Both the position numbers and the translations under genes were made by a program. The notes below the pieces were generated by a model. It saw only the letters and a program-made list of their open reading frames with translations. It did not search any database and was not told where the DNA came from. Below are positions 15,977 through 33,104 of a stretch of 57,276 bases of DNA, one piece after another. Location of the stretch: positions 1 through 57,276 of the forward strand of contig JADMII010000016.1 in assembly GCA_015478665.1 (NCBI GenBank), in the 5' to 3' direction. This DNA comes from Dehalococcoidia bacterium (GTDB lineage Bacteria > Chloroflexota > Dehalococcoidia > DSTF01 > JACRBR01). Each line of letters begins with the position of its first letter. Positions within the stretch are counted from its first letter, which is position 1.

Positions 15977-17773
15977 TTACGCCTTCTCCGTCACCTTGTA
16001 CTCGAGGCGTCGGCCCAGCGCGAGGCGGATCTGCGCATCGACGGCGGGCAGCGCGGTGAAGAAGAGTGTGATCGGCGCCATCAGCGTCCACTGCGCGAAC
16101 TGCACCGGGTAGAGCCACAGCTTCCAGCGCTTCGGACGCTGCGGCCGCATCATCGTGTCGAGGATGATCATGCCGATCAGCGGCACCATGCACGGCAGGA
16201 GGATGTAGTGCGAGGCGGGGACGAACCACGCCGGGATGTTGTAGAGCGCGAACGGATGCAGGCCGATGAAGCCGCCCCAGGCGCCGGCGGACATGTTCGC
16301 CGCGACGCCGGTGATCAGGAACCACTGCGCCGACCAGAGGACGTGGTTCTCCGTCAGGCTCCAGACGCGGCGCAGGCGGCGCAGGCGCGGGATCTCCGGG
16401 TGGGCGAAGGCCTGCCGCACCGCGTAGGGGATATCGGTGCAGCCCCAGGCGTGGCGACGGGCCTGCTGGTAGTGCTCCCAGAACGTGCGCGTGTAGCTGT
16501 GGGCGCGCACGCCGTCGTTGCCGACGGGCAGCAGGATCGGTTGCACGTCGGGCTCGCCACCGAGCGCGAAGAAGCACTTCAGGAACATGTGCCAGTCTTC
16601 CGGAACCACGTCGACGTCCCAGTAGTCGACGTCATGACACATGCGGAGGCTCAGGCTGTAGGTCGACTGCGGGAAGAGCACGGTGTACTTCCGCACGAGC
16701 TTCGCCAGGTGGTTGATGCCGCCGAGGCTGTTCTGGATGCGCAGCGGCGCCGGCACGTCCCAGACATTGTTGTAGTAGAAGATCGGCCCTTGCCAGAAGA
16801 GGCGATAGCGCCGCGTGTTCGTAGCGAATTCATAGGTCAGGGCGCTGAAATATCGGGGATGGAAGAGCGTGTCGGCGTCGCAACTCGTGATCGTCATGCG
16901 GTCGACATCGAAGCCCATCTCGTCGCAAAACAGGCGCTTCGCCTTTTTCGCCGCCCATGCCTCGTTCGACGATTTGCCGCGCACCTCGCCGGGAATATCC
17001 TTCGGGTGCGTCGTGCCCACCATCGCCAAAAAACAGTGACCGAAGTCGCGCTGCAGGATCTGGAACCGCGCCGGCGCACCGGCGTCGGCTTCCTCCATCG
17101 CGATCACGACCAGCAGCTTGTCGTGCGCGACCTCGCTCTCCGCCAGCTTGCCGAGCGTCGCGCCGAGCTTCTCGACGCTCTCCTTGTACGTCGGGATGAC
17201 GACGATGTGGCGCACGTCCTCCCATGCGAGGACGTCGTCGCGCGTGATGCGCTCTGCGTCGTAGCGCTTGCGCCAGTCGATGCGGGCGGCGGCCTTCAGC
17301 GCACGATAGCCACGGATCGTGTGGATGCCGATGTTCAGCGAGCGCCACGCCCAGTAGACGTCGAAGCCGAGCAGCATGACCACCAGCGGCACGGGCAGCC
17401 AGATAGCCCCCCAGACGAGCGACGAGATGAGCGTGGCGGCCAACGCCAACGGCAACACCTCGAGCATGCGCGTGATGACCCGCTGCGACGCCGGCACGCG
17501 GACGCGCTGCCTGACCGCCGCTGCGACATCGGCGACCGGCTGCGCGAGGTCGCCGATGGCGATGACGGGCGCCGGCCGCGGCGGCGCCAGCACAGCGGAC
17601 GCGCCCCCGCTGCTCCGCCAGGACCGCGCGGCCACGGGCGCCGCAGGCAGTGCTGCTGTCGCGCTGGCGGGCTGACGACGGTACGCGGCCGGCACCTCGC
17701 GCACGATGGGCATCACCGGCACGGCCACGGGCTCCCACGCGGCGCGGAAGCTGTTGCGGCTGCGTGGTTTCAT
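15977..17773 (-). CDS. Membrane-bound GT2 glycosyltransferase
   Basis: 598-residue membrane glycosyltransferase. Two N-terminal helices (the second around PLVVMLLGFDVYWAW) precede a GT-A domain with VVIPTYKES, the metal-binding TSCDADT, PEDWHMF carrying the likely base, and a QQARRHAWG element resembling QxxRW of processive enzymes. Three or four helices follow. It probably makes an exported or surface polysaccharide. Longer readings start at a TTG (17857) or ATG (17839), but both lie in or before an intrinsic terminator hairpin, so I use the first ATG downstream. Transcription is controlled by a c-di-AMP riboswitch immediately upstream. Confidence 0.88.
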   Translation of the reverse strand: MKPRSRNSFRAAWEPVAVPVMPIVREVPAAYRRQPASATAALPAAPVAARSWRSSGGASAVLAPPRPAPVIAIGDLAQPVADVAAAVRQRVRVPASQRVITRMLEVLPLALAATLISSLVWGAIWLPVPLVVMLLGFDVYWAWRSLNIGIHTIRGYRALKAAARIDWRKRYDAERITRDDVLAWEDVRHIVVIPTYKESVEKLGATLGKLAESEVAHDKLLVVIAMEEADAGAPARFQILQRDFGHCFLAMVGTTHPKDIPGEVRGKSSNEAWAAKKAKRLFCDEMGFDVDRMTITSCDADTLFHPRYFSALTYEFATNTRRYRLFWQGPIFYYNNVWDVPAPLRIQNSLGGINHLAKLVRKYTVLFPQSTYSLSLRMCHDVDYWDVDVVPEDWHMFLKCFFALGGEPDVQPILLPVGNDGVRAHSYTRTFWEHYQQARRHAWGCTDIPYAVRQAFAHPEIPRLRRLRRVWSLTENHVLWSAQWFLITGVAANMSAGAWGGFIGLHPFALYNIPAWFVPASHYILLPCMVPLIGMIILDTMMRPQRPKRWKLWLYPVQFAQWTLMAPITLFFTALPAVDAQIRLALGRRLEYKVTEKA

Positions 17774-17823
17774 CGGCTTCGCAATGGGCGGCGTGCCTCC
17801 CTGCACCGGGGATTGTGGGTACG

Positions 17824-17854
17824 AAAAAAGGTCGTCCATCAACGGTCCGACCTT
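17824..17854 (-). terminator. Riboswitch-associated intrinsic terminator
   Basis: A perfect 7-bp stem AAGGTCG / CGACCTT with a 13-base loop is followed immediately by a run of Ts, giving six consecutive Ts. It sits 4 bases after the riboswitch P1 stem and before the glycosyltransferase start, as expected for a transcriptional expression platform. Confidence 0.85.
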
Positions 17855-17857
17855 CAA

Positions 17858-17975
17858 AGCCTACGAGGTTAGCTGGCGGCTTGGGGGAGAAGGTTCCCCC
17901 GGATCACCCGCGCGGCGATCCTTCAGCCCATGGTGGCGGTTCCCCCGCTCTCTCCGTTCCGGGAGAGACTCGGCT
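17858..17975 (-). promoter_or_regulatory. c-di-AMP riboswitch (ydaO-yuaA class)
   Basis: The hallmark conserved blocks of this class appear in order: CCGAGTCT, CGGGGGAACC, GGCTGAAGGATC, CCCAAGCCG and CAGCTAACCTCGTAGGC. P1 can form between AGCCGAG and CTCGTAGGCT. In this class c-di-AMP binding usually turns expression off; with a terminator directly downstream, the ligand would be expected to stop transcription before the GT2 gene. Known targets include wall-remodelling and ion-transport genes, so a glycosyltransferase target fits wall or surface control. Confidence 0.93.
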
Positions 17976-17998
17976 GCATATTCTGTTGTCGTCGCCCG

Positions 17999-18028
17999 AT
18001 CTTAGGGGCGCGCGTAAGAAGCTGTCAA
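17999..18028 (-). promoter_or_regulatory. Promoter for the riboswitch-glycosyltransferase transcript
   Basis: Consensus -35 TTGACA (18028-18023), an 18-base spacer and -10 TAAGAT (18004-17999). The predicted start near 17992 lies about 17 bases before the riboswitch P1 stem. Confidence 0.75.
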
Positions 18029-18221
18029 GATCTACGCGCGGCGGCAGATGTAACGATTTCATCGACATTGTCGATGCGTGAGGACCGCCGATGCGGCGTC
18101 CATCGCCCGACGCGACGACGTCCCGACGCGCTCCACAGATTCAGATGCGGCGAGAACCGCTGCCCCGCGGCCGCGCGCGACGCAGCTTCCCCGCGCGCTG
18201 CGCCGCCTGTACGCTGGTGCC

Positions 18222-19061
18222 ATGCCAAGCGTGCATGTCAACGGCATCGACCTCTACTCCGAGGTGCATGGCACGGGCGAACCGCTGCTCTGGATCGGCG
18301 GTCTCGGCGCGAACACGCGCGAGATCTCCTACCTCATCGAGCCCTACGGCCGCCGCTACCAGTTCATCGTGTACGACGGGCGCGGCTGCGGTCGCAGCGA
18401 CAAGCCGGCGGAGGAGTACAGCATCGGCGGCTTCGCGGAGGATGCGGCGGCGCTGCTCGACGCGCTCGGCGTTCGCGATGCGTTCATCTACGGCTCGTCG
18501 ATGGGCGGCATGATCGCGCAGGAGCTGGCGCTCAATCACCCGGAGCGCGTGCGCGGGCTGGTGCTGGGCTGCACGACACCCGGCGCGGTCAAGGGCGTGC
18601 GCCCGAGCGACGCCACGGTCCGGCAGATCGTCGCCAACCGGGCGCTGAGCGGCGATGCCGCGCTCGAAGCGGGCTGGCGGCTCGGGTACAGCGCGGCGTA
18701 CATCGAGTCGCACCGGGACGCCCTGTTCGCACGCTCGCGCCATGCCGCAGAGCTTGCCGCGCCGCGCGAGGCCTACATGCGCCAGGTGATCGCCGCGGCG
18801 AAGCACGACACGTACGACCGGCTGCAGGAGATCACCTGTCCCGTGCTGATCATCCACGGCTCCGAGGATCTGATGATCCCCTCCGGCAACGCGCACCTGC
18901 TGAAGCGCTGCATCCCGCACGCGGAACTCTACATCCTCGATGGCATCGGCCACGGCTACAACCTCGAGGCGCAGGCGGAGGCCGACGCCATCGTCTTCGA
19001 CTTCCTCGGGCGCTGCTCCGCGGGAACCGCGACCAGGGTTACCGCCGATGCCGCACGCTGA
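18222..19061 (+). CDS. Alpha/beta hydrolase, first of three tandem paralogues
   Basis: 279-residue alpha/beta hydrolase. The nucleophile elbow GSSMGGM has S93, the acid is D216 (HGSEDLMIP) and the His is H244 (GIGHGY); the WIGGLGAN turn supplies the oxyanion hole. It resembles 3-oxoadipate enol-lactonase/esterase-type members. Start: TACGCT at 18210-18215 ends 6 bases before the ATG, with no Shine-Dalgarno site, so it is probably leaderless and heads a transcript with the next two hydrolases. The 3' end overlaps the second hydrolase by 14 bases. Confidence 0.9.
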   Translation: MPSVHVNGIDLYSEVHGTGEPLLWIGGLGANTREISYLIEPYGRRYQFIVYDGRGCGRSDKPAEEYSIGGFAEDAAALLDALGVRDAFIYGSSMGGMIAQELALNHPERVRGLVLGCTTPGAVKGVRPSDATVRQIVANRALSGDAALEAGWRLGYSAAYIESHRDALFARSRHAAELAAPREAYMRQVIAAAKHDTYDRLQEITCPVLIIHGSEDLMIPSGNAHLLKRCIPHAELYILDGIGHGYNLEAQAEADAIVFDFLGRCSAGTATRVTADAAR

Positions 19062-19914
19062 CAGCCGCGGCGCCGCCGCCCGGATCTACTACGAGGCGCA
19101 CGGTTCCGGCCCGCCGCTGTTGCTGATCTCCGGCTTCGGCTCGAACGCGACCGTGTACTGGGCGAACATCCCGCGCTTGAGCGAGCGCTTCCGCGTCATC
19201 GTCATGGATCCTCGGGGCTCCGGCCGCTCCGACGTCACGCCCGGGCCGTACACGATGCAGCTCCTCGCCGACGACTGCGTCGCCGTGCTGAACGCGTGCG
19301 GCGTGCATGCTGCGCACCTGCTGGGCACATCGATGGGCGGCATGATCGCCCAGCATGTCGCGCTCGGGCACCCGGAGCGTGTGCGCGGCCTCGTGCTCGC
19401 CTGCACGACGCCCGGCGGCGCACACCACGTCCTGCCGCCGCCCGAGCATCTCGCCGTCTTCGTCGCCGCCGCGGAGATCGCCGATGCCGTAGAAGCGGTG
19501 CGAGCGACCTACCGGCTGCACTACAGCGACCTCTACGCCGCCGCCCACGACGCCGAGATCGTCGCGCGCTCGCGGGCGAACGAGCGCCTGCGGTCGACGC
19601 CTGAAGGACGTGCGGCGCAGCTCGCCGCCGTGCAGGCGCACGATACCTTCGACCTGCTGCCCTCCATCACCGCGCCGACGCTCGTCGCACACGGCGAGCG
19701 CGATGGCATCGTGCCGGTCGAGAACGGCCGCTCGATCGCGGCGCGGATCCCGGGCGCCCGCCTGCGCACGTGGGCCGATGGGCGGCACCTGTTCTTCGTC
19801 GAGTTCGCCGACGAGTTCAACGAGGCCGTCATCAGCTTTCTCGATGAAGCCGACGTGCGGGAGCGGGCGGTCGTCGCCGGCGAGCACGAGCACAGCCAGG
19901 GAGGCGAGCGATGA
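19048..19914 (+). CDS. Alpha/beta hydrolase, second tandem paralogue
   Basis: 288-residue hydrolase with the triad S95 (GTSMGGM), D219 (HGERDGIVP) and H247 (ADGRHLFF), and the oxyanion region ISGFGSNA. The stretch from the elbow through HPERVRGLVLACTTPGG is nearly the same as in both neighbours, pointing to local duplication, while the cap regions differ. It starts 14 bases inside the first hydrolase gene and ends in an ATGA overlap with the third, so all three should be made together. Confidence 0.9.
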   Translation: MPHADSRGAAARIYYEAHGSGPPLLLISGFGSNATVYWANIPRLSERFRVIVMDPRGSGRSDVTPGPYTMQLLADDCVAVLNACGVHAAHLLGTSMGGMIAQHVALGHPERVRGLVLACTTPGGAHHVLPPPEHLAVFVAAAEIADAVEAVRATYRLHYSDLYAAAHDAEIVARSRANERLRSTPEGRAAQLAAVQAHDTFDLLPSITAPTLVAHGERDGIVPVENGRSIAARIPGARLRTWADGRHLFFVEFADEFNEAVISFLDEADVRERAVVAGEHEHSQGGER

Positions 19915-20738
19915 CCATCGCGCAGATCAACGGCATCGACATCTACTATGAAGAGCACGGCGACGCCGATGCGGCGCCGGTGCTGATGATCATGGGCTTC
20001 ACCGGCAACGGCGCCGCCTGGGCGCCCCAGGTGCCGGCGCTCGCCGCGCAGTACCACCTGATCGTCTTCGACAACCGCGGCGCCGGCCGCACGAGCCAGC
20101 CCGAAGGCCCCTATAGCATGCAGCAGATGGCGTCGGACGCGGCGGGCGTCCTCGATGCCGCCGGCGTCGCGAGTGCGCACATCATCGGCGCGTCGATGGG
20201 CGGCATGATCGCCCAGGAGTTCGCACTTCAATACCCCGAGCGCGTGCGGACCCTGGTGCTGGCGTGCACGACGCCCGGCGGGCCGCACTCGCCGGACTAC
20301 GAGCGCATGCACGCCGAAGCCGGCACGCTGCTCGATGCGACGGAGGTCAATATGTCGCCGGAGCGCATGCGCGAGACGATGGAGCTGCTCTTCACGCCGG
20401 AGTTCATCGCCAACCCCGGGCCGGGATTCCTGCAATTCGCCGGCTCGTCGGTGCAATACCCGGCGTCGCTGACCGGCATGAAGGCGCAGATGCAGGCGAT
20501 TCTCGCCCACGACACGTACGACCGCCTGCCACGGATCAGCGCGCCGACGCTCGTCGTCGCCGGCGACGCCGACCCGCTCGTCTCGCCCGACAACTCGCGC
20601 ATCCTCGCGGCGCGCATCCCGGGCGCGAGGCTGCGGCTGCTGCCCGGCCAGCGCCACGGCTTCACAGCGGAGAAGCCCGAGGAGACGAACGCGATCCTGC
20701 TCGAGTTCCTCTCGCAGCACGCGCCCGCGCCGGTGTAG
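19911..20738 (+). CDS. Alpha/beta hydrolase, third tandem paralogue
   Basis: 275-residue hydrolase with S95 (GASMGGM), D221 (AGDADPLV) and H249 (GQRHGF). The N-terminus INGIDIYYEEHGD and the block around YPERVRTLVLACTTPGG match the preceding two. The cap region is methionine-rich and contains GPGFLQFAGSS. Divergent caps with a conserved core suggest the three enzymes accept different esters or lactones. A cupin gene follows 36 bases later. Confidence 0.9.
   Translation: MTIAQINGIDIYYEEHGDADAAPVLMIMGFTGNGAAWAPQVPALAAQYHLIVFDNRGAGRTSQPEGPYSMQQMASDAAGVLDAAGVASAHIIGASMGGMIAQEFALQYPERVRTLVLACTTPGGPHSPDYERMHAEAGTLLDATEVNMSPERMRETMELLFTPEFIANPGPGFLQFAGSSVQYPASLTGMKAQMQAILAHDTYDRLPRISAPTLVVAGDADPLVSPDNSRILAARIPGARLRLLPGQRHGFTAEKPEETNAILLEFLSQHAPAPV

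Positions 20739-31156: not shown

Positions 31157-33104
<1,948 letters not shown>

Follow-up and report, generated by a model that had tools for sequence, protein, structure and literature searches.

A putative c-di-AMP riboswitch with a terminator hairpin enclosing the probable start codon of a membrane glycosyltransferase gene in Dehalococcoidia

Background

On the minus strand of a 57,276-nucleotide stretch of DNA from a Dehalococcoidia bacterium (the window), a promoter, an aptamer of the c-di-AMP (ydaO/yuaA) riboswitch class, a terminator-like hairpin and a gene for a membrane glycosyltransferase of family GT2 follow one another in that order. The arrangement raises the question of whether c-di-AMP controls this gene and, if so, whether control would be exerted on termination of transcription, on initiation of translation, or on both. 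There is precedent for each of the first two: c-di-AMP promotes termination in Bacillus subtilis (PMC9960051) and represses translation in Corynebacterium glutamicum, for which a pseudoknot of the aptamer sequence CTCC with the ribosome-binding sequence GGAG has been suggested in the bound state (PMC9960051), and ydaO has been placed in the interdomain-docking class of riboswitches (PMC10907184). A literature search for c-di-AMP control in Dehalococcoidia found no paper.

Results and discussion

Promoter and aptamer

The aptamer (17843-17985, minus strand) scores 78.1 bits with the covariance model RF00379, for which the gathering score is 38 bits, and the match runs from model position 1 to 134 of 134 (E 1.6e-16), with zero non-standard pairs flagged. 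Upstream of it lies a sigma-70-type promoter (17999-18028, minus strand) consisting of TTGACA (18028-18023), an 18-nt spacer and TAAGAT (18004-17999), with 10 of 12 consensus matches. Taken alone, the promoter match is weak, as a consensus scan of 5 kb returned one match where 0.5 were expected in shuffled sequence; in 32 of the 40 orthologous leaders, however, a TTGAC lies no more than 75 nt ahead of the aptamer. Transcription from this promoter would begin a few nucleotides upstream of the aptamer. The region beyond (18078-20738, plus strand) holds three tandem alpha/beta hydrolase genes, transcription of which points away from the riboswitch promoter. The initial annotation, made from the letters of the window, had described a consensus promoter, a complete ydaO-class aptamer, an intrinsic terminator and a membrane GT2 target gene, all of which were found where it had placed them. 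On these sequence features and their conservation, the locus is very probably a functional c-di-AMP switch acting on the GT2 gene.

The regulated glycosyltransferase

The downstream open reading frame (15977-17839, minus strand) encodes a protein of 620 amino acids that scores 45.3 bits with PF13632 (cut-off 27), a family that all eight of the aligned homologues also match. The PF13632 group of membrane GT2 enzymes includes synthases of the hyaluronan, cellulose and OpgH types. The protein resembles these enzymes in its Pfam family, in a GT-A core with flanking hydrophobic helices, and in the motifs TSCDAD (DxD-like), PEDWHM (ED-type) and QQARRHAWG (QxxRW-like), which are kept in most homologues, but differs from them in that an NCBIfam search gave no match and the PDB, searched by sequence and by profile, gave none that was significant; none of these searches found a characterised relative. 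An AlphaFold model built from six sequences had a pLDDT of 44.7 overall, with only the GT-A half usable, and its structural matches were to generic GT-A folds, with BcsA and hyaluronan synthase among many tied matches, so that absence of a family from these matches is uninformative. Synthesis of a polysaccharide is plausible, and it is somewhat favoured that the enzyme builds or modifies an envelope glycan, a proposal that derives from its membrane segments, from the GT-C partner described below and from the known targets of c-di-AMP. Osmoregulated periplasmic glucans of the OpgH type are made at low osmolarity. A role of this kind was considered for the GT2 and set aside, because synthesis at low osmolarity is opposite to the outcome of a c-di-AMP OFF switch.

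Association of the riboswitch with the GT2 gene

Among the 60 nearest genomes searched (host included), GT2 homologues were found in 17, and in 16 of these RF00379 lies immediately upstream on the same strand. Across 294 Dehalococcoidia genomes, 47 carry the GT2 gene and 41 of the 47 have RF00379 directly upstream, 40 of them by an automatic cut and one more (G193) in which riboswitch and alignment share 62 nt, where the automatic cut is 60. In three genomes, RF00379 is located 2-4 kb upstream and heads a run of genes in which a GT-C glycosyltransferase (PMT_2-like) directly precedes the GT2 (L089, G088:C62; L088, G070:C119; L090, G102:C72); the run of G088 also holds a weak MGH1-like hydrolase. 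Such a run is possibly a glycan-assembly operon. The remaining cases are copies at contig ends (G152, G220 and one fragment of G284), a second, unlinked copy in G102, and G034, in which the GT2 gene truly is without an upstream RF00379. Homologues with approximately 30-43% identity occur in other classes of Chloroflexota, and of 40 such genomes, eight have RF00379 but none has it upstream of the GT2. The pairing of riboswitch and GT2 has been retained throughout the class, whereas the sampled members of its sister classes lack it. The link is therefore of long standing in the class and has the look of an acquisition specific to this lineage.

A chance juxtaposition, or a degenerate aptamer that no longer functions, might be suspected because the GT2-associated aptamers score approximately 49-92 bits, below many other copies (up to 107 bits). 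All of these matches are nevertheless above the cut-off, the hairpins that follow are conserved, and an aptamer directly upstream in 41 of 47 genomes is not accidental, which makes this explanation extremely improbable.

The start codon and the hairpin around it

The segment that follows the aptamer can form a hairpin (17855-17827) with an 8-bp stem of -12.5 kcal/mol, its 5' arm being GAAGGUCG (17848-17855, minus strand) and its 3' arm CGACCUUU (17827-17834, minus strand), after which come six U (17824-17829, minus strand) ending at 17824. It has the features of the intrinsic terminator that had been proposed at this position; a consensus terminator scanner missed it because the scanner considers no loops longer than 8 nt.

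The position of the hairpin relative to the protein depends on the start codon, which the initial annotation had placed at 17773, clear of the terminator. A comparison of the leaders of the seven members of the window's family (G000-G006) contradicts that placement. The ATG at 17837-17839 (minus strand) is the only start codon common in frame to all seven; ATGGACGACCT is present in the GT2 frame, inside the hairpin, in every one of them, and the proteins open with it. In G004, an in-frame TAG directly precedes the conserved ATG, the frame of G003 and G006 closes 18 nt upstream of it, and G005 offers no other start from this ATG at codon 1 to codon 50. The ATG at codon 23 (17773) is confined to the three genomes of the host's genus and is lacking in G003, G004, G005 and G006. 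Differences in length between the conserved ATG and the conserved segment SFRAAWEP are of whole codons; within codons 1-23, G006 has one codon more and G005 is shorter by whole codons. Thus, by comparison of sequences, the protein very probably starts at ATG 17839. Because the hairpin by itself accounts for part of the conservation of GACGACCT, this conservation is not independent proof of coding. TTG 17857 and GTG 17806 were rejected as starts because neither is conserved in frame through the family.

Two observations count against this assignment. The sequence GAAGG in the 5' arm resembles a Shine-Dalgarno sequence, but its spacing of 11-17 nt from the AUG is long for one. In addition, a GGAGG (17796-17800, minus strand) is conserved in the N-terminal coding region of six of the seven family members, always in frame, 33-42 nt past the start codon, and its GGA is used as a codon nowhere else in the gene. 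As the Shine-Dalgarno sequence of a downstream start it was rejected, since the family shows no consistent start codon beyond it, and the 22 nt from GGAGG to ATG 17773 are too far for this function.

If the protein starts at 17839, the 3' arm and the U-tract must be codons 2-6 of the GT2 gene, the 3' arm lying inside codons 2-5 and the U-tract forming part of codons 4-6. One alternative is a purely transcriptional switch, in which the hairpin serves termination alone and the protein is made from 17773. It would account for the good U-tract in the window, for terminators clear of the start codon before the GT2 genes of G008, G010, G052 and G071, and for the codon-23 ATG shared by the three genomes of the genus; it is unlikely because G003-G006 lack this ATG, G005 has no start between codons 1 and 50, the differences within codons 1-23 are of whole codons and the GGAGG is 22 nt from ATG 17773.

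The opposite alternative is a purely translational switch, in which the hairpin only hides the start codon and the run of U is a by-product of Leu-Phe-Ser codons. In G005 the U-tract is lost while the hairpin and the ATG are retained, families f5 and f36 have hairpins at the start site without a U-tract, and the nlpC riboswitch of C. glutamicum acts on translation (PMC9960051), all in line with this alternative. The codons themselves speak against it: among the 620 codons of the gene, CTT is used once compared to 53 uses of CTG and CTC, and TTT three times compared to 23 uses of TTC, so that the U-tract is built from codons that the gene otherwise avoids, a sign of selection acting on the RNA. 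Furthermore, a T-rich run is retained in six of the seven family members, and the terminators at the equivalent place in sister families are unmistakable. A switch acting on translation alone is therefore possible without being probable, and a single hairpin acting on both termination and initiation is slightly favoured.

Expression platforms in the class

A comparison of 40 orthologous GT2 leaders indicated that the segment following the P1 helix forms a hairpin more stable than dinucleotide shuffles of the same segment (mean z -2.0, negative in 39 of 40). Three designs were distinguished. In the first, a plain terminator stands clear of the start codon (G008, G010, G052, G041 and G071). In the second, a hairpin without a U-tract abuts or covers the start codon (families f5 and f36); in genus g67 (G075, G161, G140 and G190), the 3' arm of the hairpin is codons 2-3 of a protein that begins MVS. 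The third design, that of the window's family, is a mixed form in which a terminator encloses the start codon.

The helix between aptamer loop and tail

Within the 5' arm of the window's hairpin, GAAGGU (17855-17850) is complementary to the segment ACCUUC in the loop of the aptamer (17889-17894, minus strand), so that GAAGGUCG has two partners, either CGACCUUU downstream, giving the terminator with its six U, or the aptamer loop; as predicted from the sequence, pairing of loop and tail would exclude the terminator. An expression platform with mutually exclusive pairings is thus predicted directly 3' of P1.

Covariation in the 97 RF00379 leaders at loci L040-L157 of the class was used to assess whether this complementarity is general. 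The pairing energy of the loop with its own tail was -10.45 kcal/mol, compared to -7.95 kcal/mol with the tails of others (z -11.2), while the controls over the same 97 riboswitches gave z 0.0 for a reversed loop and z -0.1 for another segment of the aptamer. With the GT2 leaders alone, the signal was z -3.3 (p 0.0008) and both controls were null. The reversed-loop control departed from zero in the non-GT2 subset (z -3.0, compared to z -9.6 for the real signal) and under permutation within genomes (z -3.2, compared to z -6.0). In the Rfam consensus of RF00379 itself, the loop reads CUCUUU and the tail AAAGAG. The pairing of the aptamer's terminal loop with the tail after P1 is a candidate for a general switching helix of the riboswitch class. 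An anti-terminator suggested by plain folding, in which GGUCGG pairs with CCGCC of the aptamer, was discarded because it is present only in part of family f1 and is not retained elsewhere.

The loop-tail helix could instead be the docked state of the ligand-bound aptamer, in which case c-di-AMP would block the terminator and turn the gene ON. A review that puts translational ydaO riboswitches in the interdomain-docking group (PMC10907184) and the CTCC-GGAG pseudoknot of C. glutamicum (PMC9960051) lend themselves to this interpretation. The characterised c-di-AMP riboswitches in the literature surveyed are OFF switches, however, and docking of a Shine-Dalgarno sequence in translational members would also turn genes OFF, leaving only the members with terminators to be inverted; this polarity is accordingly doubtful. 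By analogy with precedent, repression of the GT2 gene by c-di-AMP is likely.

Proposed mechanism

The best overall interpretation is that c-di-AMP probably acts as an OFF switch on envelope glycan synthesis through both termination and initiation. With c-di-AMP bound, the hairpin of GAAGGUCG and CGACCUUU would form and transcripts would end there, and in any transcripts that read through, the hairpin would occlude the start codon. When c-di-AMP is low, which by analogy may be the case at low turgor, under potassium limitation or upon osmotic upshift, the 5' arm would pair with the aptamer loop, the hairpin would be absent, and the GT2 would be made.

Production of the ligand by the organism is predicted from its genome (2.67 Mb in 66 contigs, with three RF00379 sites), where the search for dacA/cdaA recommended at the outset found one DAC domain (PF02457, E 1.1e-42) in a CdaA-like protein, the gene for which is followed by those for a YbbR/CdaR-like protein and Der. 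A second riboswitch of the host (L091, G000:C10:89651-89784, minus strand) precedes the gene for a fusion of trehalose-6-phosphate synthase and phosphatase (OtsA-OtsB; PF00982, 522 bits; PF02358, 162 bits), and OtsA/OtsB-like cluster members follow 12 of 63 non-GT2 riboswitches of the host genome and its relatives. No c-di-AMP riboswitch on trehalose synthesis was found in the literature searched. The full proposal, in which the hairpin both terminates transcription and covers the start codon, the first codons supplying its 3' arm and U-tract, the loop forms a general covarying switching helix, and a c-di-AMP regulon specific to Dehalococcoidia couples trehalose synthesis to an envelope glycosyltransferase, has roughly an even chance of being correct in all its parts.

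Comparison with known systems

The locus resembles ydaO/kimA of B. subtilis (RF00379) in its class of aptamer and in an intrinsic terminator directly after P1, but the target in B. subtilis is a potassium importer whereas that in the window is a GT2 with its start codon inside the terminator. It resembles nlpC of C. glutamicum and rpfA of Streptomyces coelicolor in its class of aptamer and in control of an envelope-related gene, translational in the case of nlpC, but these genes encode peptidoglycan hydrolases and have no canonical terminator, whereas the window has a glycosyltransferase and a hairpin with a U-tract. A membrane GT2 as target of a c-di-AMP riboswitch was not found in the literature searched, the coverage of which left out the core ydaO papers. 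The aptamer class is known, the kind of target gene appears to be new and the overlap of terminator and start codon is unusual. The proposed switch would extend c-di-AMP control to a new class, Dehalococcoidia, and to a new type of gene, the membrane GT2; together with riboswitch control of OtsA-OtsB trehalose synthesis, it would provide a concrete and testable link between osmotic signalling and envelope glycans; and switching of the expression platform in this riboswitch class could be modelled simply, and probed by mutation, through the covarying helix of loop and tail.

Other features of the window

A search of a plasmid collection gave no match. A second, ordinary riboswitch in the window, of the TPP class (RF00059, 31148-31244, plus strand, 62.2 bits), lies directly upstream of a ThiC-like open reading frame (31323-33104, plus strand).
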